A model generated the notes under the pieces. That model was not told where the DNA came from, ran no database searches, and saw only the letters and a list, made by a program, of their open reading frames with translations. A stretch of 64,000 nucleotides of DNA from Burkholderiaceae bacterium. Lineage in GTDB: Bacteria > Pseudomonadota > Gammaproteobacteria > Burkholderiales > Burkholderiaceae_D. The position numbers were made by a program, and so were the translations under genes. Shown here one piece after another: positions 11,214 to 24,570 of this stretch. The first letter of the stretch is position 1. Every line of letters starts with the position of its first letter. The stretch spans positions 62,001-126,000 of the forward strand of contig SCTK01000011.1 in NCBI GenBank assembly GCA_004298905.1, read 5' to 3'.

Positions 11214-12173
11214 CTACTTGCGCTCCGGTAAATATTTGGCCGGATCGGTGGGCTTGCCTTGATAACGGATTTCAAAATGCAATTTGGGCCGATCGGTGTC
11301 TGAAGCACCGATTTCGGCAATCTTCTGCCCCTGCTTGACGACCTGTTTTTCCTCCACGAGGATTTTATCGTTATGTGCATAGACCGACAGATAACCATCG
11401 CTATGCGATACCACGATCATGTTGCCATAACCGCGCATGCCGTTGCCAACATAAACCACCCGTCCGTCGGCCGCAGCGCGCACTGGATCGCCCCGTTTGC
11501 CCGCGATGGCGAGACCTTTGTGACGGGACTCATCGAACGGTTCGATCACCTTGCCATCGGCCGGCCAGGCCCACGACAAGGCGCCGGGCGCGGCAACAGC
11601 GGGCTTGGTTTCCGGCGGCGCAACCACGGCAGGAGTTTGTGCCTGCGGCTGTACCGGCGTACCTGTCAGCTCGGCATACGTACGGTCGGAGTAGGCGATC
11701 TTCTCACCTTTCGGGCTGGTTTTGCTAGTGGCACTGTTGGGGCCGATCACCACCGGCCGCGTTTCATTCAAGGGGCGCCCCTGCACCGACTCCAATGTTA
11801 CCGGCGTTGTGACCGCTGCCGCATTCCTCGTTTCATTCGCCGCCTCATTCGTGGGAGAAACGCGCAAGACCTGGCCTTCCTTGATGGCGGTCGGATCGGA
11901 CAAATTGTTCCAGGCGGCAACGTCGCGGTAATTCTGTCCATGTTCGAGCGCGATCGAATACAAGGTCTCACCTTTACGCACGGTATGGAAACCAGGGTTG
12001 TCGCCTTGCGGCACACCCGCAGCCTGACGTTCGCCGGGAGCAACGGTTTGCACGCTGGCGGACGGCTGGGCACTCTTCTCAGAACGATCAATCACGGGCG
12101 CGGGCAAATTACTGGCGCAACCAGAAAGGAGAACGATCAGCGCAGAGAGAAAAAATCTTGGGGTGGATTGCAT
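11214..12173 (-). CDS. nlpD: NlpD-like lipoprotein: LysM and M23 peptidase domain, amidase activator
   Basis: A 319-residue envelope lipoprotein. The signal peptide ends in the lipobox LSGCASN (Cys at about residue 19). A LysM peptidoglycan-binding domain (FHTVRKGETLYSIALEHGQ) sits at about residues 62-106, followed by a Pro/Thr-rich linker. The C-terminal LytM/M23 domain holds GLAIAGKRGDPVRAAADGRV and LHFEIRYQGKPTDPAKYLP. NlpD-type proteins activate septal amidases. Some Zn ligands of true M23 enzymes appear replaced (GLAIAG where HxGxD is usual), which fits an activator without catalysis. It sits between pcm and rpoS. Confidence 0.93.
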   Translation of the reverse strand: MQSTPRFFLSALIVLLSGCASNLPAPVIDRSEKSAQPSASVQTVAPGERQAAGVPQGDNPGFHTVRKGETLYSIALEHGQNYRDVAAWNNLSDPTAIKEGQVLRVSPTNEAANETRNAAAVTTPVTLESVQGRPLNETRPVVIGPNSATSKTSPKGEKIAYSDRTYAELTGTPVQPQAQTPAVVAPPETKPAVAAPGALSWAWPADGKVIEPFDESRHKGLAIAGKRGDPVRAAADGRVVYVGNGMRGYGNMIVVSHSDGYLSVYAHNDKILVEEKQVVKQGQKIAEIGASDTDRPKLHFEIRYQGKPTDPAKYLPERK

Positions 12174-12191
12174 TGTTCGTGTGAAAAAAAT

Positions 12192-12887
12192 TTATGACGT
12201 TCCTGCCAACAATGGTACAAATCGTACCGCATCCAGCCGGGTTTGTTGCCACTGCGCGGGCCCGGTGCGTTCGACCAGCAAGAGATATTGATCCGCATCG
12301 CCGACCGGCGCAATCAACTTGCCACCGATCTGCAACTGTTCAAGCAAAACCTGCGGCAATTCCAATCCGGCGGCAGCAACAATGATGGCATCAAATGGCG
12401 CGGCTTGCGGCAAACCCAGCATGCCATCGCCAAATGCCAAACGAATATTTGGAATCCGCAGCGGACGCAAGTTGTTGCGCGCGACCTCGTGCAACGCACG
12501 AATACGCTCAATCGAATACACCTCGGCAAACACCTGACTCAACACGGCCGCCTGATAGCCGCAGCCGGTGCCGATTTCCAATACCTTGCCTTGCATTCCG
12601 GACGCTGCCTGCGCAGCGGGCAGCACCAGCTCGATCATGCGCGCGACCACATAGGGCTGCGAAATGGTTTGACCTTGCGCAATCGGCAGCGCCGTGTCCT
12701 CATAGGCGCGGCTGGCGAAACCCTCATCGACAAACAAATGACGCGGAATGGCCTGCATGGCATGCACCACGCGTGGATGCCGCACCCCCAACTGACGGAT
12801 GCGCTCGACCATGCGCTGACGGGTGCGCTCCGATGCCATGCCCGGCTGAGGCTTGGCGGCCGCCTTGCCAAAAAAACGTGCTGTCAT
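12192..12887 (-). CDS. pcm: Protein-L-isoaspartate O-methyltransferase
   Basis: A SAM-dependent enzyme of 231 residues that methylates isoaspartyl residues to start repair of aged proteins. It has the PCMT core [22 protein letters not shown] motif [17 protein letters not shown] and [14 protein letters not shown]. The first 20 residues are a basic extension. The start overlaps the surE stop (ATGA). surE-pcm-nlpD-rpoS is the classic stress-survival block of gamma- and betaproteobacteria. Confidence 0.95.
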
Positions 12888-13636
12888 TGTGGTTCCGCCT
12901 GCAGCCAGTGCGCCACGCGCGGCATCTGCTCGGCGCGCGTCAGATCGATCTGCAAAGGCGTGAGCGAGACATAACCTTCGGACACGGCATGAAAATCGGT
13001 GCCCACGCCCGCGTCCTTTTCGCCGCCCACCGCGCCGACCCAGAACACTTCTTCACCGCGTGGATTACGTGTGCGCACCACCGGCTCGGCATGATGGCGC
13101 TTACCCAGCCGCGTGCAGCGCATGCCGCGCAGATCTTCATATGGCCGGTTGGGAATGTTGACGTTCAACAGGAAAGGTTCGGGCAAAGGCTGCGCCAATT
13201 GCCGTGCCACCAGTTCACACGCCACACGCACGGCGCTATCGAGATGCGTCATATCGCGGCTTGCCAGCGAAAACGCGAACGATGGCAGACCCAATAGATA
13301 GCCCTCCATCGCCGCCGCCACCGTGCCGGAATAAATCGTGTCGTCGCCCATATTGGCGCCATTATTGATACCCGACACGACGATGTCCGGCAAGTGCTCC
13401 AGCAAACCCGTCACCGCCGTATGCACGCAATCGGTCGGCGTGCCATTGAGATACATGAAGCCGTTGGCGGCCGTGCGCACGGTCAGCGGCCGATCCAGCG
13501 TGAGTGAATTGGAGGCCCCGCTGCGATCGCGCTCCGGCGCCACCACCGTCACCTCACCAAACGCACGCAGAGCCTTGGCCAAGGCCTCGATGCCAGGCGC
13601 GAAATAACCATCGTCATTGGATACAAGAATACGCAT
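12884..13636 (-). CDS. surE: 5'/3'-nucleotidase SurE
   Basis: A 250-residue metal-dependent nucleoside monophosphate phosphatase linked to stationary-phase survival. The active-site pieces are all visible: [14 protein letters not shown] at the start (Asp8, Asp9), [13 protein letters not shown] (Ser/Asn ligands), [11 protein letters not shown], and [19 protein letters not shown]. Length matches the family. It overlaps pcm by 4 bases and is first in the leftward operon; 126 bases separate it from the divergent efflux operon. Confidence 0.97.
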
Positions 13637-13762
13637 GGGCCGATTCTACCGGATTGACCCGAACCGATTTGGCCAATCACTACGCCACAACCGCAGACCG
13701 GGGTAATATCCTGTCAACGCAGTGACATCCGTACACCAAGCCAGCAAAAGAGAGACTGCACG

Positions 13763-14749
13763 ATGAACCACACGCACATATCCCGATGGCGCAGTGCCAT
13801 CCTGCTTGCCTTGGTTGCCTGGCTCGCTGCCTGCAGCCGCAGCAGCGACAATGGTTATCAAGGCTACGTTGAAGGCGAGTATCTGTACCTCGCCGCGCCG
13901 CTGGCCGGTTATCTGGACACCTTGCATACGCCGCGCGGCAGTCGTGTCGTCAGCGGCGCACCTGTCTTTTCAATTGCCGCTGACACGGAGCAGCACGGAC
14001 TGCAAGCAGCCGAAGCACTGGCGCGCGCCGCCGACGAACAATTGCGCAACCTCAGCACCCCGCGGCGCCAAAGCGAAATCGCCACCTTGCAAGCGCAACT
14101 CAGAGTCGCTGAAGCGGCCCTGCACTTATCGGACAGGCAATTGCAGCAGCAGGAATCGCTTGCTGCCAAGGGTTTTATTTCAGCATCGCAACTGGATGCG
14201 GCACGCGCTGCGCGCGCGCGCGATGCCGCGCAAGTGGAAGCAGCGCGCGAGCAACTCGCCACCGCGCGCGCCACACTGGGGCGCGCACCGGAAGTGAATG
14301 CCGCGCAAGCGCAGGCACAGGCAGCGCAAGCCGATGTGGCGCAAAAACGTTGGCAGGTGGAAAAGAAAATTGTCACCGCCCCCAATAACGGCGAAATCGC
14401 CGATACGTTTTACCGCCCCGGTGAATGGGTGCCGGCCGGACAGCCCGTGGCGAGCCTGTTGCCGGATGGTTTACGGCGCATCCGTTTCTTCGTGCCGGAA
14501 ACCGTGGTCGCCCGCATTCAACTGGGGCAAGTGGTGCAAGCGACATGTGATGGCTGCGCGCAACCGATCCGCGCCACCGTGAATTTCATTTCACCCCAAG
14601 CCGAATACACACCGCCCGTAATCTACAGCCGCGGCAGCCGCGAGAAACTGGTGTTCCGCATCGAAGCCGTACCCGCCGCGGAACAGGCCGCTACATTGCA
14701 TCCCGGCCTGCCAGTCGATGTGAAACTGCTGGAACAGAAAGCGCCCTGA
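13763..14749 (+). CDS. HlyD/YhiI-type periplasmic adaptor lipoprotein of an ABC efflux system
   Basis: A 328-residue membrane-fusion protein. The N-terminus is a lipoprotein signal (VAWLAACSRSS, lipid Cys about residue 23). The mature protein starts with a lipoyl-like beta segment (GYQGYVEGEYLYLAAPLAGY), then a long Ala/Gln-rich coiled coil (about residues 85-205) and a second half-lipoyl plus beta-barrel (NGEIADTFYRPGEWVPAGQPV). This is the domain order of HlyD/YhiI adaptors bridging an inner-membrane ABC exporter to an outer-membrane channel. The ATPase starts 1 base after its stop. No TolC gene is present nearby. The substrate is unknown. Confidence 0.9.
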   Translation: MNHTHISRWRSAILLALVAWLAACSRSSDNGYQGYVEGEYLYLAAPLAGYLDTLHTPRGSRVVSGAPVFSIAADTEQHGLQAAEALARAADEQLRNLSTPRRQSEIATLQAQLRVAEAALHLSDRQLQQQESLAAKGFISASQLDAARAARARDAAQVEAAREQLATARATLGRAPEVNAAQAQAQAAQADVAQKRWQVEKKIVTAPNNGEIADTFYRPGEWVPAGQPVASLLPDGLRRIRFFVPETVVARIQLGQVVQATCDGCAQPIRATVNFISPQAEYTPPVIYSRGSREKLVFRIEAVPAAEQAATLHPGLPVDVKLLEQKAP

Positions 14750-14750
14750 G

Positions 14751-15680
14751 ATGGCCGACGATCTGGTCATCGACGTTGCTGGCATCAACAAACATTTCGG
14801 CGCCAAACACGTCGTGAAGGATTTGACGCTGCAAGTGCGGCGCGGGGAAATCTACGGTTTCCTCGGCCCCAACGGCAGCGGCAAAACCACCTCGATCCGC
14901 ATGCTATGCGGCCTGCTCACGCCGGACAATGGGCGCGGCACTTGCCTGGGTCTGGATGTGTTGACGCAGAGCGCGCAAATAAAACGCCAGGTCGGCTACA
15001 TGACGCAACGGTTCTCGCTGTGGGACGATCTGACGATTGCGGAAAATCTGGATTTCGTGGCGCGCATGTTCGGCATCGAAGATCGCCGTGAGGCGGTGAC
15101 GCAAACACTCGACAATCTGGGCCTGAGCGGCCGCCGCGATCAACTGGCGGGCACACTGTCCGGCGGCTGGAAGCAACGCCTCGCCTTGTCGGCCTGCCTG
15201 CTGCACCACCCCAAACTGCTGCTGCTCGATGAACCCACGGCGGGCGTCGATCCGAAAGCGCGGCGCGATTTCTGGGAAGAAATTCATCGCCTCAGCGCCG
15301 CTGGCGTCACGGTGCTGGTGTCGACCCACTACATGGATGAAGCCGAGCGCTGCCACCGCCTCGCCTACATTTCCTACGGCACGCTGCTGGCTTCCGGCAC
15401 TGCGGCCGAAGTCGTAGCGCAGCAAAAACTCCACACCTGGGAAATCAGTGGCGCCGATCTGCACGGTCTGGCGGAACGCCTGCGCCAACTCCCGGGCGCC
15501 GAACTGGTGGCCAGCTTCGGCGCCACCCTGCATGTGAGCGGCAAAGACGAAGCCGTGCTGCAAAAGAGTTTGACGGATTTTCTGCAAGCGACCACGCTGA
15601 CGATGACTGCCGTACCGACCTCGCTGGAAGACGCCTTCATCCACATGATGAAGGACAGCCCCGACCCTTTGCGCCAGTGA
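14751..15680 (+). CDS. ABC transporter ATP-binding protein (ABC-2 type drug/efflux family)
   Basis: A 309-residue ATPase with one complete nucleotide-binding domain. Walker A is GPNGSGKTT (about residues 42-50), signature LSGGWKQRLALSACLL, Walker B LLLLDEPTAGVDPKARRDFW, switch His in STHYMDEAE. The last 90 residues form a regulatory tail typical of the CcmA/YhiH-like ABC-2 group. It is the motor for the adaptor upstream and the permease downstream. The 232-base gap to the permease is filled by a large inverted repeat. Confidence 0.95.
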   Translation: MADDLVIDVAGINKHFGAKHVVKDLTLQVRRGEIYGFLGPNGSGKTTSIRMLCGLLTPDNGRGTCLGLDVLTQSAQIKRQVGYMTQRFSLWDDLTIAENLDFVARMFGIEDRREAVTQTLDNLGLSGRRDQLAGTLSGGWKQRLALSACLLHHPKLLLLDEPTAGVDPKARRDFWEEIHRLSAAGVTVLVSTHYMDEAERCHRLAYISYGTLLASGTAAEVVAQQKLHTWEISGADLHGLAERLRQLPGAELVASFGATLHVSGKDEAVLQKSLTDFLQATTLTMTAVPTSLEDAFIHMMKDSPDPLRQ

Positions 15681-15735
15681 AATCATGAAGGTTCATTCGG
15701 ATTGTCTGTGGACCAAAAAGTCGGTGAGGAAGTTA

Positions 15736-15870
15736 CCCTCGCCCGCATCAGCGGGAGAGGGTGGCCCGAAGGGCCGGGTGAGGGCCAATGGTCGCGGTTC
15801 AAGGGAGGTGCCGATTCAGTCATCGTTTGCCCTCACCCCCGGCCCCTCTCCCGCTGATGCGGGCGAGGGG
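15736..15870. repeat. GC-rich palindromic repeat (REP-like) inside the efflux operon
   Basis: Arm 15736-15761 (CCCTCGCCCGCATCAGCGGG plus GAGAGGG) is the reverse complement of 15845-15869. Inner arms GGGCCGGGTGAGGG (15771-15784) and CCCTCACCCCCGGCCC (15830-15845) also pair. The whole unit can fold into one long hairpin on the mRNA between ATPase and permease. A related single unit is at 44654-44691. Confidence 0.85.
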
Positions 15871-15912
15871 AGAAAACCAAGGAATACCCACACAGAAGCC
15901 TGATGAACCATC

Positions 15913-17046
15913 ATGAACACCTTTTCCGCTTCTTTTTCTTTTTCGCGCTGGCTCGGCATCCTGATCAAGGAATTCATTCAGTTGAAGCGCGACCGGTTGA
16001 CCTTCGGCATGATCGTCGGCATCCCCATCATGCAATTGCTGTTGTTCGGTTTTGCCATCAACTCCGATCCCAAGCATCTGCCCACCGCCGTTGTCGTGGC
16101 CGAGCCCGGCCCCTTCGCGCGCGCCTATGTGGCCGCAATGCAGAACAGCGATTACTTCACCATCGTCGGCAGCGTTGATGCACGCGAAGCCGACCGGCTG
16201 CTCGACCGCAGCGCAGTGCAATTCGTCGTCACCTTTCCGGCCGGTTTTCAGCGCGACCTGGTGCGCGGCAAATCGCCGGTGCTGCTGGTCGAAGCCGATG
16301 CCAGCGATCCCGTTGCAGTGGGCGGTGCAATCTCGGTGTTGAATCATCTCGGCGGCGAAGTGTTTGCCGCTGAACTGCCCGGCGTGCATACACCTGCACC
16401 CGCAACCATCGAACTGCGCGTGCAGCGCCGCTACAACCCGGAAAGCATCACCGCCTACAACATCGTCCCCGGTCTGCTCGGTGTGATTCTGACGATGACG
16501 ATGATCCTGATGACCGGACTGGCAATGACACGCGAACGCGAACGCGGCACCTTTGAAAATCTGCTGTCCACGCCCGCCACGCCGATTGAAGTGATGACCG
16601 GCAAGATCGTTCCCTACATCCTCATCGGTCTGATTCAAGTCTCATTGATTCTGCTCGCGGGCCGCTGGGTCTTCAACGTACCCATGCATGGCAGCATTGC
16701 GCTGCTCTATGTCGTCGTGCTGCTGTTCATCTGCGCCAACCTCACGCTCGGCATCACCTTCAGTTCGATTGCGCGCAATCAACTACAGGCGATGCAGATG
16801 ACCTTCTTTTTCTTTCTGCCCTCGATGCTGCTGTCCGGCTTCATGTTCCCGTTTCGCGGCATGCCCGGCTGGGCGCAAGCCATCGGCAACGTTCTGCCCC
16901 TCACCCACTTCCTCGTCCTCGTGCGCGGCATTCTCCTCAAAGGCATCGGCCCCGCCTTGCTGTGGGATCACGTCTGGCCGATTTTGCTGTTCATGAGTGT
17001 GGTGCTAGCACTGGGTCTGAAGACGTTCAAGCGCACGCTGGATTGA
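15913..17046 (+). CDS. ABC-2 type transporter permease
   Basis: A 377-residue inner-membrane permease. It has one N-terminal helix (about residues 25-45), a large extracytoplasmic domain (about 46-190) and five C-terminal helices containing LLSTPATPIEVMTGKIVPYI and the ABC-2 signature region RGMPGWAQAIGNVLPLTHFL. This is the YhhJ/YbhR architecture that works with a HlyD adaptor. It completes the three-gene efflux set. It may not be strongly coupled to the ATPase gene because of the hairpin repeat between them. The substrate cannot be read from the sequence. Confidence 0.92.
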   Translation: MNTFSASFSFSRWLGILIKEFIQLKRDRLTFGMIVGIPIMQLLLFGFAINSDPKHLPTAVVVAEPGPFARAYVAAMQNSDYFTIVGSVDAREADRLLDRSAVQFVVTFPAGFQRDLVRGKSPVLLVEADASDPVAVGGAISVLNHLGGEVFAAELPGVHTPAPATIELRVQRRYNPESITAYNIVPGLLGVILTMTMILMTGLAMTRERERGTFENLLSTPATPIEVMTGKIVPYILIGLIQVSLILLAGRWVFNVPMHGSIALLYVVVLLFICANLTLGITFSSIARNQLQAMQMTFFFFLPSMLLSGFMFPFRGMPGWAQAIGNVLPLTHFLVLVRGILLKGIGPALLWDHVWPILLFMSVVLALGLKTFKRTLD

Positions 17047-17133
17047 CGATTGATTCTACGATCATCAATGGGGTTGACTCGATTGATTTTTAGTCTCGAG
17101 GGAGGGCTCGCCATGAACCGGAGATTCACTTAA

Positions 17134-17160
17134 GGAATGTGATAATGAAAGACCTGACCC
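17134..17160 (+). repeat. Left imperfect inverted repeat bounding the integron-cassette island
   Basis: The 27 bases beginning GGAATGTGATAATGAAAG match the reverse complement of 18924-18950 at 24 of 27 positions. Just outside, 17068-17084 (AATGGGGTTGACTCGAT) resembles the end of the palindromes at 46088 and 46471. See the finding on the island. Confidence 0.75.
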
Positions 17161-17197
17161 TCGGCATGTGCTCGGCATGTGCAGTGATGCTGCACCA

Positions 17198-17512
17198 CTA
17201 CCTCCTGTCGGCATTTGAATCTTGCCCTTCTGGCGACGATGCGCTGCCTTGCGGCGCGGAAGGCGATTGCTGAATCTGCAAGCGTTCGGGCAATAGCGAT
17301 TGAACCTGTGGAAGGGCTAAGAGAGCAAGGACGACGGCCAGGACAAGCAGCACAAAGGATGGCGCTACGCTCCAGTGAGGCTTCTTCAATCTATCGAGCT
17401 TCAACAGAATGAGCTCGCGCGTCAGTGGCTCGTGGTTAACGCTACCGCGCGACATGCCTTCAAGTTGTTTCTGCAACTTGGCTTCGCGCTCTTGCGGGGT
17501 AGGCTTTGTCAC
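17198..17512 (-). CDS. Cassette-borne small membrane protein of unknown function
   Basis: I recognise no family. The frame gives 104 residues from a GTG at 17512, only 7 bases after the attC end. An alternative ATG at 17455 (85 residues) has a better ribosome site (AAGG, close upstream). The N-terminal half is charged (EREAKLQKQLEGM, TRELILLKLDRLKK), followed by one membrane helix (VAPSFVLLVLAVVLALLAL) and a Ser/Gln/Pro-rich tail. It lies as the third cassette gene in the array, reading the same way as the two before it. No attC follows it, so the cassette looks truncated at its 3' side, near the inverted repeat. Confidence 0.6.
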   Translation of the reverse strand: MTKPTPQEREAKLQKQLEGMSRGSVNHEPLTRELILLKLDRLKKPHWSVAPSFVLLVLAVVLALLALPQVQSLLPERLQIQQSPSAPQGSASSPEGQDSNADRR

Positions 17513-17519
17513 TTGAGAC

Positions 17520-17603
17520 GCCTAACGAAACAAACTAACCGGCGGCCCGCTGCCGGGGCGAAGCCCCGCATGCGGGACGTCCGCGTTGAGCGACGGGTTA
17601 GGC
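17520..17603 (-). other. Integron attC recombination site (attC1)
   Basis: Read on the minus strand, the 84-base site opens with R'' GCCTAAC (17603-17597) and closes with R' GTTAGGC (17526-17520). Inside are an L''-like TCAACGCGGACG, a central stem GGGGC-TTC-GCCCC, and an L'-like GCCGCCGGTTAG. CCCGC and GCGGG also pair. The site lies 58 bases after the stop of the ClpP-like cassette gene and immediately before the next gene, where an attC belongs. Confidence 0.88.
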
Positions 17604-17661
17604 CGCAATCTCTGGAGGCTGAAATGGATCGTCCCTGCACGAAGAGCTAGCCTTGTCCTGT

Positions 17662-18339
17662 CTACCTTTTACTCGGGGGCCTCAGCATATTCCTTACGCA
17701 TTGCAAATAATTCGACGGCTCTGGGCTAATGTCATATCGACTAATTCCCCAGCAATCGGCTTGCTTGCGATCGACCCAAATAACTTGATCGTAAGGGACG
17801 TCTTTGATCAGCGCCATCACGGCCCCATAGGAGGTTCCGTGTGCAAACGCATGATTGGCAATGACCTCATTGCATAGACTCTCGATCTTCTTGGTCTTCG
17901 CGTTGAAGCAACCATGAAAGCCCAGGAGGCCTCCGTCAGCGGCGACATGTTCACGCCCTGCAATGAAGACTATGGCGGCGCACGCCGAGACGCAGGTGCC
18001 GCCCGGCGCAATGTAGGTGTTTACGTATTGAGAATCGATAGCCTTCGAAACTTCGAGGGCGGCCCCAACACTGCCTCCTGGACTGTCAAGAACTAGGGCG
18101 TAGTACCCGGAGGAGTGTTTAGCTTTTGGTGTGAAGGCTGCGAGTAGCCTGGTAGAGTCACCTTCGACGATCTCCCCGCTCGCGCGAATTGCTGGTTGAC
18201 CACTTACAATAACAACGTCAAACGACATCGCCAAGGTCTGCCCGACACTTAAAGTTAGGAGGCCGAGTGCACTCAAAAACCTCGATAGTTTTGGCAGGAG
18301 AGGTTGTGGTCGCGTGGACTTCGGATTCTGTCTTTTCAT
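17662..18339 (-). CDS. Secreted ClpP/crotonase-fold putative serine protease carried on an integron cassette
   Basis: A 225-residue protein with a basic start and Sec signal peptide (about residues 17-38, ending TLA), so probably periplasmic. The core has the ClpP-fold layout: LVLDSPGGSVGAALEVSKAI (oxyanion region, 82-101), a candidate nucleophile Ser118 in TCVSACA, His142 in GFHGCF 24 residues later (ClpP spacing is about 25), and DRKQADCWGI near the expected Asp. This resembles periplasmic ClpP-like proteins of the COG3904 kind, whose substrates are unknown. It is cassette 2: R' of attC2 lies 27 bases upstream and attC1 follows. No clear ribosome site is seen. Confidence 0.75.
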   Translation of the reverse strand: MKRQNPKSTRPQPLLPKLSRFLSALGLLTLSVGQTLAMSFDVVIVSGQPAIRASGEIVEGDSTRLLAAFTPKAKHSSGYYALVLDSPGGSVGAALEVSKAIDSQYVNTYIAPGGTCVSACAAIVFIAGREHVAADGGLLGFHGCFNAKTKKIESLCNEVIANHAFAHGTSYGAVMALIKDVPYDQVIWVDRKQADCWGISRYDISPEPSNYLQCVRNMLRPPSKR

Positions 18340-18366
18340 TTGACGGGAGTGGGCGGGTGCTGTGCG

Positions 18367-18454
18367 GCCTAACGTTTTGGTGAGCGGCGCGGGCCGTGAG
18401 ATATCAGGAAACGCGCCGTTGTCCCGCCGCGTCCGCTCGACCTAAATGTTAGGT
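18367..18454 (-). other. Integron attC recombination site (attC2)
   Basis: On the minus strand this 88-base site starts with R'' ACCTAAC (18454-18448) and ends with R' GTTAGGC (18373-18367). The inner arms GAGCGGACGCGG and CCGCGCCGCTC pair perfectly except for one unpaired A, the extrahelical base that orients attC for integrase. The site begins 6 bases after the stop of the upstream cassette gene. All hallmarks of a functional attC are present by eye. Confidence 0.92.
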
Positions 18455-18460
18455 TTCGTC

Positions 18461-18790
18461 TCATCTTAAAAGCTGGCGAAAAAATTCTTTGATCTCATAG
18501 CGAGAATGGGGGTCCAAAGCGGTAACCGTGCCGCAAACAGCCAAAGTAAATGCATATCCTTTTACGATATGCGGAAGGTGGAGCGGAACGGCAAGGACTT
18601 TATAGTTTGTAGTACTTTGATTTCCCCATCGCATATATTCGGCACTTTGGAACCATACTCGTTTTGATCCAAGCGGAAGAATTGGCAACCACAACAACGT
18701 AATCCACTCCGTCACAACGTAGGATCCATCCGTTTCTGGAAATGCCTTCCCGTAGTACATCGTTCCGGTACCGTTGAACGCGTGCGGCAT
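18461..18790 (-). CDS. Cassette-borne hypothetical protein
   Basis: A 109-residue protein from the ATG at 18790, chosen because GAGGAG lies 5 bases upstream; a longer frame to 18805 is less likely. It has a beta-rich start (FNGTGTMYYGKAF) and a hydrophobic stretch WITLLWLPILPLGSKRVWF, with no signal peptide or catalytic motif I know. The DNA is clearly more AT-rich than the flanking housekeeping genes. It is the first gene of the cassette array: a core site GTTAGGT (18819-18813, minus) lies 22 bases upstream, and attC2 begins 6 bases after the stop. Function unknown. Confidence 0.7.
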   Translation of the reverse strand: MPHAFNGTGTMYYGKAFPETDGSYVVTEWITLLWLPILPLGSKRVWFQSAEYMRWGNQSTTNYKVLAVPLHLPHIVKGYAFTLAVCGTVTALDPHSRYEIKEFFRQLLR

Positions 18791-19100
18791 TTGCACTCCT
18801 CGCATTTTAGAAACCTAACTAGAAGTAGACATCCTATTTGACGCAAAATAACACGTCAAGAAGAGTATAAAAATTTGCGGAAACTTGGGGTCAGAAACTT
18901 GCAGAAACTTGTGCAGAAACTTGGGGTCAAGTCTTTTATGATCACATTCCACCAACAACATTGAGAACACCACACCCCAAAAATTCCAGACCCACTTCGC
19001 AAACTGCGCTGCATTATCTCCCCCGTGTCACGCAAAAGGCAATATGCGGTCGCAACATCGCGCGCCCGCACATAGCTATATGTTCAACAGGGCAGGGGAA
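18791..19100. other. Non-coding stretch between the cassette array and the Ala/Thr-rich gene
   Basis: No convincing gene. It holds the core site GTTAGGT at 18819-18813 (minus), which could be the end of a lost attC or an attI. A cluster of AGAAACTTG-type direct repeats lies at 18878-18931, with AAACTTGGGGTCA twice (18881 and 18917). The right inverted repeat of the island is at 18924-18950. I find no integrase coding here. The short frames present show no motif. Confidence 0.7.
18924..18950 (-). repeat. Right imperfect inverted repeat bounding the integron-cassette island
   Basis: The reverse complement begins GGAATGTGATCATAAAAG and ends GACTTGACCC, matching 17134-17160 with three mismatches in 27. 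It lies just outside the first cassette core site, so the two copies frame the array. Confidence 0.75.
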
Positions 19101-20222
19101 TCAGGCCAGGCCGCGTTCGCCGTGGGTGATCGGCAAGACGCGGGCCAGCGTGCCCACTTCGGGAATCGCAGCGGGTTCGATGCCCGCGATGGACGGATTG
19201 CGCAGCATCTGTTCAACCACGCGATAGGCGGCCACCGCTGCGGCAACCATGGGGTCGGCCGCTTGCGCGCGCAAATCGCCAAGCTGCGGCACGGCATTGG
19301 CGGCTGCGGTGGTGGTCGTATTTGCTGGCACAGCTGCGGGTACGTTGGCCGGTGTGGTGGCAGGTTGAAGCGTTGCCACGGCAGCCGTTGCCGTGGAATT
19401 TCCTGTATCAAGTGCGAGCGCTTGTTCCGCCTGCAACGTTGCTGCCAGCACCGCGTCTGGATTGTCCGACGGGACGGTAGCCGGAGTGACCGCCGTGGCT
19501 GTCGTAGCGGTTGCGGCCGGTGCCGCTGGCGTTGCAGCAATCGTTGAAGCGGTCGTTGAGGCTGCCGCCTCTGCAACCGTCACCGGGGTTGCCGACTCTG
19601 CAGCGGGTTGTACAGTCACTGTTGTTGTGCCCAGCGGGAACACGCCTGTCGCATCCGATGTCACCGCGGTTTGTGTCAATGCTTGAAAACCTTGTCCCAG
19701 CAGAGCGATCGTCCCGGCCGGGTTGGTGTTGAAGGCCGATTGCAGCGTAGTGAAATCGACCGCGATCTGTGGATTGGCGCCGGGTATCACCGACGCTTGG
19801 AATGTGATGCCGGCCTGTTCCAGACTGGTTTGCAACGATGCGCCATCGCTGGTCGTCGCCGAGCCTAGTGCGTCAAGCGGGTTTTGCAGGCCCGCATCGC
19901 TGGCCTGAAAGGTGTTGAATGCGCTCACAAAAAACTGGGTGGCCGTCGCCAAATTATCAAAACTGCTACTGCCGGGAGCGGTATTGCTAACGGCCTGCTG
20001 GGTCTGAAAGGCTGCCGACGCGGACAAGAGCGAACCCAGCGTTGAAATGTCGACAAAACTTGCCGGGCTGTTGCTGGACAATAAATCCAGGCCGGATGTT
20101 TGCCCGAGTGCTTGCACAGCATCGGCCGTGCCCAGAGGAAAGGACGGCGTGATCGCGTCGATTCCGAGCAGGGCTAAAAAACCGCTGGGAGAAATTGCCG
20201 AGGTGGCGGCTACTGTTGCCAT
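19101..20222 (-). CDS. Ala/Thr/Val-rich low-complexity protein of unknown function
   Basis: I do not recognise this gene. The ATG at 20222 has AAGGA 7 bases upstream and gives 373 residues; the frame stays open to 20288. Residues 1-190 look ordered, with alternating hydrophobic and polar segments (SGFLALLGIDAITPSFPLG, IAVDFTTLQSAFNTNPAGTI). This loosely recalls flagellar hook-cap or hook-length proteins, but I would not assign that. Residues about 200-330 are a low-complexity Ala/Thr/Pro/Val run. The end is ordered again (VAAYRVVEQMLRNPSIAGI). No signal peptide is seen. It stands alone between the cassette island and truB. GC and codon use match the host more than the island. Confidence 0.65.
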   Translation of the reverse strand: MATVAATSAISPSGFLALLGIDAITPSFPLGTADAVQALGQTSGLDLLSSNSPASFVDISTLGSLLSASAAFQTQQAVSNTAPGSSSFDNLATATQFFVSAFNTFQASDAGLQNPLDALGSATTSDGASLQTSLEQAGITFQASVIPGANPQIAVDFTTLQSAFNTNPAGTIALLGQGFQALTQTAVTSDATGVFPLGTTTVTVQPAAESATPVTVAEAAASTTASTIAATPAAPAATATTATAVTPATVPSDNPDAVLAATLQAEQALALDTGNSTATAAVATLQPATTPANVPAAVPANTTTTAAANAVPQLGDLRAQAADPMVAAAVAAYRVVEQMLRNPSIAGIEPAAIPEVGTLARVLPITHGERGLA

Positions 20223-20340
20223 CGCAAATCCTTGCTTTATTTTCCGGGCGACGACCAGACACGGATACCACCGGACGCCGTAAAACACACCCCAAGTTTA
20301 GACCCTGGCGCAGAAAATATCAGCCGCGGAAATGCAAAAT

Positions 20341-21252
20341 CTACGCTGCTTCAACGACCAGACGTTCGGGTTGCAGGCGACCGGATTCTTCCAGCAGCGC
20401 ACTGCCGAGCAAGCGGTCGCCGCCATAGACGCGCACGCGGCCGCTGACGTTGGCCGTGACCATGAGACGTTGCCCCTGCCGGAAGCGCGCGGCATACGCA
20501 TCGTCGAGATCGAGGCGCGGCAGGGTTTGCAGTAAATGATCGACAGGATGCAACAGGTGTACACGTTCCGCCGCTGACAATTGCGCCAGCTGTTCGAGCG
20601 TGACGCCCTGCTCCAGCAGCAACGGCCCCACCTGGAGACGGCGCAGCGCGATGAGGTGTGCGCCGCAGCCCAGTGCCGCACCGATATCTTCCGCCAGCAC
20701 GCGCACATAGGTGCCCTTGCTGCAGCAGACCCGGAACTTCAATTGATCGTGTTCCAGCGCCAGCAGCTCCAGGGCGTGAATTTGAATGTCACGCGGTGCA
20801 TGTTCAACCTCGATGCCCTTGCGCGCATATTCGTACAAGGCGATGCCGTCGCGCTTGAGCGCGGAATGCATGGGGGGGATTTGCTGAATGGGCCCACGAA
20901 ATTTCTGCAAGACACTTGCCACTGCGGTGGCATCGATGTTGACCACCGGCAAGCGTTCAAGCACCTCGCCTTCGGTATCGCCCGTGGTGGTGGTCACCCC
21001 CAGCTGTGCGATGGCCTCGTAGGTTTTGTCGGCATCGAGCAGATCGGCGGAAAATTTCGTCGCCTCGCCCAGACAGATCGGCAGCAAGCCGGTGGCAAAG
21101 GGATCGAGCGTGCCGGTGTGGCCGGCCTTTTGTGCGTTGAACAGGCGTCGCACTTTTTGCACGGTGGTGTTGCTGGAAAGACCTTCGGGTTTATCGAGCA
21201 AGAGGACACCGGAGATCGCCTGGCGCGCAGCACGCGGCTGCCGACCGTCCAC
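20341..21252 (-). CDS. truB: tRNA pseudouridine-55 synthase
   Basis: A 303-residue enzyme that makes the T-loop pseudouridine 55 in tRNAs. The conserved motif I is [16 protein letters not shown], and the catalytic Asp lies in [15 protein letters not shown]. The KTYEA and [15 protein letters not shown] segments are also typical, with a PUA-like C-terminus. The start is GTG with AAGGAG 8 bases upstream, inside the last codons of rbfA. It ends the rimP-nusA-infB-rbfA-truB operon. The rpsO gene that often follows is absent here. Confidence 0.96.
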
Positions 21253-21257
21253 CCGCC

Positions 21258-21623
21258 CTACTCCTTGGCGCGTGTCGCGTTGGCCTCGTCGATCAGCCGC
21301 GATAAATCGGCGCCGCGTTCGAGCGAAGTGTCGTGCAGAAAATGCAGCGTGGGTACGGTGTGAATGTGCAGACGCTTGAAGAGATGATTGCGCAACATAC
21401 CGGCCGCGTGATTCAAACCTTCCACAGCAGCTGCGGTATCGCTAGTGAGCGTGGAAAAATAAATCTTTGCGTGCGCATAATCCGGCGTGACTTCAACACT
21501 GGTGAGCGTCACCAGCCCGACGCGCGGATCGCGCAATTCACGCGCAATGATTTCCGACAGATCGCGCTGGATCTGATCGGCAACCCGTAAACCGCGATTG
21601 GGAATGGATTTGGAGTGTTTCAT
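21258..21623 (-). CDS. rbfA: 30S ribosome-binding factor RbfA
   Basis: A 121-residue KH-fold protein that binds the 30S subunit during late 16S rRNA maturation and cold shock. Typical parts are [22 protein letters not shown] and [17 protein letters not shown]. The ATG at 21623 was chosen; the longer frame uses a TTG. Only 5 bases separate it from truB. A palindromic repeat fills the gap to infB upstream. Confidence 0.95.
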
Positions 21624-21635
21624 TTGGCATTTCTC

Positions 21636-21788
21636 CCTCCCCTTCAAGGGGAGGGTTGGGGTGGGGATGGGTTATTGCAGTGCCTCACAGAAACCCATCC
21701 CCCACCTGATCTTAACCAGCGACTTAGCGCCGGTAGTTTGGCGCTTAGTCGAATGGCTATGCACAGCACGCCCCTTGAAGGGGAGGGA
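21636..21788. repeat. GC-rich palindromic repeat between infB and rbfA
   Basis: CTCCCCTTCAAGGGGAGGG with its GTTGGGGTGGGGATGGGTT tail starts at 21636, AACCCATCCCCCACC follows from about 21692, and CCCCTTGAAGGGGAGGG recurs at 21771. The same core is in the repeat at 49892-50005. It would be transcribed within the nusA-infB-rbfA operon. Confidence 0.8.
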
Positions 21789-21795
21789 ATATCAG

Positions 21796-24570
<2,775 letters not shown>

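Follow-up and report, generated by a model that had tools for sequence, protein, structure and literature searches.

A probable integron remnant lacking its integrase and headed by a putative orphan attI in a Burkholderiaceae genome

A stretch of 64,000 nucleotides from a Burkholderiaceae draft genome (hereafter the window) carries three small minus-strand genes together with two attC-like sites, and the question is what kind of locus this is and by which route the cassettes came there. The first-pass annotation had described an integrase-less cluster of cassettes (CALIN) in a housekeeping region, and on re-reading its coordinates, its R''/R' boxes and its gene order on the minus strand are all borne out. 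In integrons, the integrase IntI cuts the folded bottom strand of attC and joins the cassette to attI between the G and the TT of the core; the newest cassette adjoins attI. The features discussed below are the following, the genes being taken from the list of open reading frames and R1 being an attC covariance model, whose E-values are rough because its calibration was shortened.

17198..17512, minus strand: ORF1, third gene, 104 aa, GTG start
17520-17603, minus strand: attC1, R1 37.1 bits, E 3.2e-7 (rough), slightly degraded
17662..18339, minus strand: ORF2, cassette gene 2, 225 aa
18367-18454, minus strand: attC2, R1 44.4 bits, E 4.7e-9 (rough)
18461..18805, minus strand: ORF3, cassette gene 1, 114 aa
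18813..18870, minus strand: putative orphan attI, found with a weight matrix, its extent past about 30 bp set by eye; R box GTTAGGT at 18813-18819, L-box region at 18820-18842, upstream arms TTGACGTG / GCGTCAAAT
18831..18859, minus strand: promoter-like pair TTGACG-17-TAGGAT inside the putative attI, reading into ORF3; candidate Pc

Read along the minus strand the order is attI - ORF3 - attC2 - ORF2 - attC1 - ORF1. We consider, with a probability of about 0.74, that this locus is the remnant of an integron, made of an attI, two complete cassettes (ORF3-attC2 and ORF2-attC1) and a third gene, from which intI has gone.

Cassettes and attC sites

The training set of R1 comprised 27 attC sites at 10 intI-adjacent loci of other genomes, excluded the window sequence, and drew 13 of the 27 from a single locus (L036). 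The source was a set of 20 fetched intI loci, half of which gave attC with a script applying the R''/L''/L'/R' rule; in the training sites 94% of cells form the named pairs, the sites having been chosen partly for pairing. Both window sites, about 760 bp apart on the same strand, score significantly with this model from other genomes and are confirmed as real attC. Over the entire 64 kb and up to E=10 the sole other match was a weaker reverse reading of attC2 (22.2 bits), and without filters the next best place between 12000 and 24000 reached 11.7 bits. An Rfam scan of the window returned no attI or attC family and one tRNA.

Concerning the structure of the sites, attC2 satisfies the simple rule with a single base unpaired within the L arms, in line with the paired arms and single extrahelical base first described for it, whereas attC1 carries an extra G in L'' and fails the rule; we therefore regard attC1 as slightly degraded. 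Folding of the bottom strands as DNA, the check that had been proposed, gave z values of -5.7 for attC2 and -3.0 for attC1, the cassette top strands giving -4.7 and -1.9, respectively. The simple rule alone is weak evidence, one site being observed in the window versus 5 in 60 dinucleotide shuffles. This rate, one false site in roughly 12 shuffled windows, is what can be said for reading the locus as no integron at all but as palindromic intergenic repeats between three native genes, a very improbable explanation in view of the model scores, the matching polarity of the two sites and the genes, the attI at the head, and the absence of the genes from nearly all the relatives sampled.

The rarity of the three genes is uneven. 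ORF1 has no relative in 239 other genomes of the family or in the plasmid collection; ORF3 has relatives in two of the 239 and no match in the plasmid collection; ORF2 gives weak matches, and nothing stronger, in ten of them, together with relatives 32-37% identical on plasmids of the soil bacteria Paraburkholderia, Cupriavidus and Sinorhizobium (80 plasmid records searched). The three genes are thus not a fixed syntenic block in relatives, which the first-pass annotation had named as a finding that would speak against it. Among 15 loci holding relatives of the cassette genes, an attC-like site was found at one (L072), where it lies directly upstream of a partial ORF3 relative (23.4 bits).

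Both ORF3 and ORF2 have the make-up of a cassette, a gene plus attC in one polarity with an R box at the gene start. The likelier start of ORF3, judged by eye, is the ATG at 18790, preceded by GAGGAG; Pfam and NCBIfam searches gave no match for this gene. A family search gave below-threshold matches of ORF2 to NfeD1b_N, CLP_protease and SppA, and from its motif and a signal reading we take it to encode a putative ClpP/SppA-like protein, probably exported. ORF1, with one likely membrane helix by eye, lacks the attC of a full cassette: of the 21 matches of R1 without filters over 12000-24000, none falls between it and the permease gene (17047-17197). It is either a cassette whose attC is lost or a native gene that took in the array.

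The first-pass annotation had supposed that the cassettes were brought in together. Over 52 arm positions the likeness of the two window sites to each other is 46%, and that to seven other attC sites of the same genome 37-60%; because of this low likeness the cassettes look separately captured.

The junction at the head of the array

A further core site, GTTAGGT (18819-18813), had been noticed before ORF3. This site is real, but it does not appear to be a bare core, and by its sequence we identify it as the putative R box of an attI heading the array. GATGTCTACTTCTA precedes the core, and in intI-upstream regions of relatives the junction with the first cassette is arranged similarly, for instance as GGCGCCTACTTCTC-GTTAGGC (L009) and, in a second case, GACGTCTACTTTAG-GTTGGGC (L013).

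A weight matrix was derived from 17 intI-adjacent attI sites of other genomes, picked by eye and some of them after a look-up with the window site. It gives 25.6 bits at 18813-18842 on the minus strand, the best score on both strands of the 64 kb, the next being 11.7. When each of the 17 sites was left out in turn, scores ranged from 5.8 to 30.7 bits, and four (5.8-10.2) fell under the runner-up of the window; as these four lie at background level, the matrix does not describe all attI. We also used a control that involves no picking, in which all 73 GTTRRRY sites of the window were compared as 30-mers with the full length of 30 intI-upstream regions. Among the 73, the site at 18813 has the highest value, a mean of 19.8 identities out of 30 over its top five regions, while the remaining 72 average 16.8 (sd 0.45) with a highest value of 17.8; the margin is clear and depends on five regions with 18-22 identities out of 30. 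The best match of the window site starts 127-154 bp from the intI match in 11 of the 30 regions and ends there in register on a GTT core, the core itself lying at a distance of about 150-177 bp; a twelfth region matches in register with its start at 179. Of the parts of a complete integron, the attI site is therefore probably present, at 18813..18870.

This bears on the origin of the array, for which the first-pass annotation had left two routes, loss of intI or off-target insertion. In the latter, an IntI acting in trans would have placed the cassettes at a chance site of the attG type (reportedly the sites treated by Loot et al. 2024), in a place that was never an integron. The process is known, as the available text of two papers describes (PMC12901181, PMC12444791), no intI remnant lies beside the window array, and the window attC sites are unlike the resident attC type of the genome. 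No place in the window, however, matches attI better than the 5' junction, which also outscores the 72 remaining GTTRRRY sites against intI-upstream regions, while attG is described in the same available text as neither attI nor attC. Because the array is headed by a putative attI, we consider off-target insertion improbable and favour the head of an integron that has lost intI, the first of the two routes.

The pair TTGACG-17-TAGGAT scores 9/12 in a promoter consensus scan, which found three such sites in the region versus 1.4 expected (sd 1.1); as pairs of this kind occur near chance frequency, it is no evidence by itself. Conservation of a promoter was considered as further support and rejected, since consensus scores at the window head and at 11 other heads of the genome (see below) are not above those of shuffled sequence; a TTG-17 spacing is common to several heads by eye.

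Just upstream of the attI, at window positions 18882 and 18918, stand two copies of AACTTGGGGTCA, which we take to resemble the repeats found beside REP-associated transposases. Farther on, window positions 19101-20288 encode an alanine-rich protein of 395 aa adjoining truB, with no match in an NCBIfam search; this neighbour gene has one weak relative in 79 other genomes, which provided no usable empty site.

The missing integrase and other heads of the genome

The source genome is a draft of 2,479,956 bases in 26 contigs, 100% complete by tool estimate. The earlier statement that the window has no integrase can be extended to this assembly: none of the six candidates, all of them scored, exceeds the TIGR02249 cut-off, and the two related recombinases of the genome are XerD (365.8 bits, cut-off 329.6) and XerC (341.2 bits, cut-off 335.15) by NCBIfam. 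Of 245 genomes of the family, 30 do have an intI above the cut-off in the same TIGR02249 search. Among open segments of at least 30 aa, no intI remnant was found beside the window attI or at 15 loci of the same genome and, since its heads have no such remnant, loss of intI at the window is inferred from relatives. With 26 contigs, and with three of the other heads no more than about 2 kb from a contig start, the assembly may have an intI in one of its gaps. Two arrays and one head run into contig starts (L087, C3:1-2000; L088, C25:1-1160; L104, C22:1-660), as would be expected if repeated attC and attI sequences broke the assembly.

A search of the genome for more attC had been suggested, and R1 gave at least nine places at E 2.5e-5 or better among the best 150 of 1343 candidates, seven of them outside the window. 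Five of the non-window sites, at four head loci, are of one type, 83-92% alike in their arms and unlike the attC of the window. At several attC places a conserved element ending GATGTCGTATACATCACG-TTAGGC lies upstream of the first gene; its 22-base end occurs at seven places in the genome with three mismatches or fewer, a reversed control pattern at none. We built a sequence model of this attI-like element, R2, from eight copies of the genome and five copies from named genomes, and its strict filters, together with a limit of 19 scored candidates per genome for the source genome and the family relatives and of 11 for the sample of the order, make all copy numbers lower bounds. R2 finds at least 11 copies in the genome at E<1e-6 (the eight of the training set and three new ones), plus one weak copy. 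With the matrix from intI-adjacent attI of other genomes, eight of the 11 score 19.6-31.0 bits, while three do not stand out, one having 11.9 bits and two being outside the listed matches. By sequence and place, this element appears to be an attI.

An attC follows on the same strand after five of the 11 heads (C3, C25, C5, C21 at 172 kb and C21 at 221 kb); for the head on C22 the contig starts 578 bp downstream; the remaining five have no R1 match downstream up to E=10, even if the C23 head shows a decayed attC half by eye. At C21, 38 kb, an attI-like element (L140:5428-5499) is followed by no attC match and no obvious cassette gene and is possibly an empty head. The genome also holds a single attC-like site of 35.9 bits (L089:6473-6563, C25 at 106 kb), with no attI-like element found by the matrix over the fetched 12 kb, possibly a solitary or off-target cassette, and two weaker attC-like sites of 25 bits (L093:5594-5704 and L094:5733-5799).

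R2 has no match at the window head even without filters, and we therefore rejected the view that this head shares its type with the others. Speaking of it as one of 12 heads is consequently an analogy: the genome seems to hold about 12 integrase-less heads, namely 11 of another attI type and that of the window. What the first-pass annotation saw as stranded cassettes is one case among several.

As to the nature of the attI-like elements, a role as single-stranded hairpins or riboregulators was discarded because the DNA folding of three of them (z -0.1 to -1.3) is within the range of shuffles, and an Rfam scan over six loci with such heads gave no attI or attC family and one sub-threshold match. 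We read the elements as putative repeated protein-binding arms. By eye the head unit would be promoter-leader-attI, about 150-230 bp long. A conserved block 117-142 bp before the core resembles, by eye, the intI start of a Methylobacter MAG (MPTNTTS vs MPANTTP, head C3), and of ten heads searched seven match a loose pattern for it, the mismatches numbering from 0 to 9 out of 23; that the block is a reversed intI start is a lead, not evidence. Travel of the heads with common cassettes was not upheld by blastn, by which the regions downstream of the 11 heads and of the window have attI and attC sequence in common and no gene.

This last pattern, 11 copies sharing attI and attC sequence and no gene, is compatible with a decentralised integron, in which a single IntI, encoded on a plasmid, in a gap or in sister strains, would act in trans on the scattered attI as functional capture sites, each with one or a few cassettes. 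The close likeness of the five attC sites at four head loci points the same way, as does a Methylobacter genome described below, whose intact intI is distant from three elements on the same scaffold. The absence of IntI from this assembly, the five heads without an attC match and the intI fragments beside similar heads, indicating decay, all tell against it, and we judge a decentralised system to have a low probability, much as off-target insertion. Somewhat less unlikely, though still doubtful, is that the lineage, in place of a single platform with a long array, spread many short heads through the chromosome, each of which fixes one or a few captured genes as a small unit of its own, with IntI later lost or acting in trans. 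For the heads of this genome as a whole, several integrons whose integrases decayed are the most likely account.

Similar heads in relatives and comparison with known systems

Heads similar to the 11 were found in Methylobacter, Methylomonas, a Nitrosomonadaceae MAG and ten other relatives, and more weakly in an eleventh. In 399 genomes of the order, R2 detects at least eight besides the source genome at E 0.001 or better, all belonging to genus g58, with at least five copies in the richest of them (G309). At the loci of g58 an attC at E 0.1 or better was found in 10 of 16, each downstream and on the same strand. In the set of 239 relatives from the family, at least one clear copy is present in G052 and in G012, and at least three weaker copies in G099; matches of 14 further genomes at E 0.0025-0.1 we treat as chance. 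In G099, two of the weak copies flank a truncated intI (L146/L147) and the third is 388 kb away, an arrangement in which heads are perhaps multiplying together with intI.

Seven loci of relatives (L144, L145, L146, L151, L154, L161 and L165) have intI fragments directly beside the element and in opposite orientation. Because the heads of relatives keep a broken intI in this canonical divergent position, integrase loss from once-complete integrons is favoured.

Going farther, a 21-base pattern (20 positions specified) occurs in Methylobacter marinus A45 (two stretches), Methylomonas lenta, a Methylobacter MAG and the Nitrosomonadaceae MAG; R1 places attC downstream of the element in four of these five stretches, and in the fifth (L107) the attC sites follow a second copy of it. 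On one scaffold of Methylobacter marinus an intact intI lies at 2.94 Mb and three elements at 4.56 and 4.66 Mb, so that at least 1.6 Mb separate them, and its own attI is of another type by eye. In the Methylobacter MAG, intI is likewise intact, and its contig ends in a sequence that by eye resembles the first arm of the element and at which R2 has no match; in Methylomonas lenta and the Nitrosomonadaceae MAG no match exceeds the intI cut-off. In Methylomonas lenta (L108:133-648) a head of the same type is followed by a gene resembling SMR efflux genes by eye and then by an attC of 31.7 bits.

For the window locus, the favoured reading of a remnant implies the following course. An IntI that the locus no longer encodes would have cut the attC of each cassette and joined it to GTTAGGT between G and TT, and ORF3 would be the last one captured because the newest cassette adjoins attI. 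The intI would then have been lost and the array frozen, after which decay of attC would have begun, visible as the extra base of attC1 and as the site missing after ORF1. The candidate promoter inside the attI may still express ORF3.

Calling the locus a CALIN is correct by the operational definition, two or more attC and no integrase, but incomplete, since CALINs are defined regardless of attI and this array is headed by a putative one. According to the available text of PMC12444791, CALINs away from the main integron occur in roughly 50% of Xanthomonas genomes, and the larger species sets taken together have them at seven distinct loci. As IntegronFinder, by the available text of its paper, detects no attI outside class 1 (PMC9024848), attI heads like these would go unreported by it. 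Complete chromosomal integrons, such as those of G001 (L036) and of Methylobacter marinus A45 (L123), likewise have an attI upstream of the first cassette and cassettes with attC in one polarity; they possess intI, whereas the window locus is without it and has two or three cassettes only.

In a survey of pseudo-integrons (BMC Genomics 2008, PMC2426708), pseudogenes made up almost one third of the intI genes, 20% of the bacteria surveyed carried more than one integrase gene, and many pseudo-integrons were proposed to stem from duplication within the genome, as far as its available text goes; because that survey searched for intI, it would have missed heads without it. Pseudo-integrons keep a broken intI, whereas none was seen at any of the 12 heads here. 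Insertions at attG resemble our case in that cassettes occupy scattered genomic places, and differ in that attG is given as neither attI nor attC, while the sites here match attI. Cassettes of the delta-attI type, as outlined in the available text of PMC12901181, likewise show attI sequence away from intI, but there a fragment of attI replaces attC after the gene; here the attI stands before the first gene, ORF3 and ORF2 end in attC, and the matrix scan shows no second attI in the window. In titles and abstract openings of the literature we found no description of scattered, duplicated or integrase-less attI, which is not proof of absence.

Here an attI can be recognised without intI, and for the window locus this tilts the balance between the readings. 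The approximately 12 heads without integrase, together with relatives that keep a broken intI, would form a graded series of multiplication, integrase loss and cassette fixation. Should the heads still function in trans, a genome would not be limited to one place of cassette capture; and if the lineage did spread many short heads, the occurrence of such heads in Methylobacter, Methylomonas and Nitrosomonadaceae would make head multiplication a recurrent route by which mobile cassettes become settled genes.
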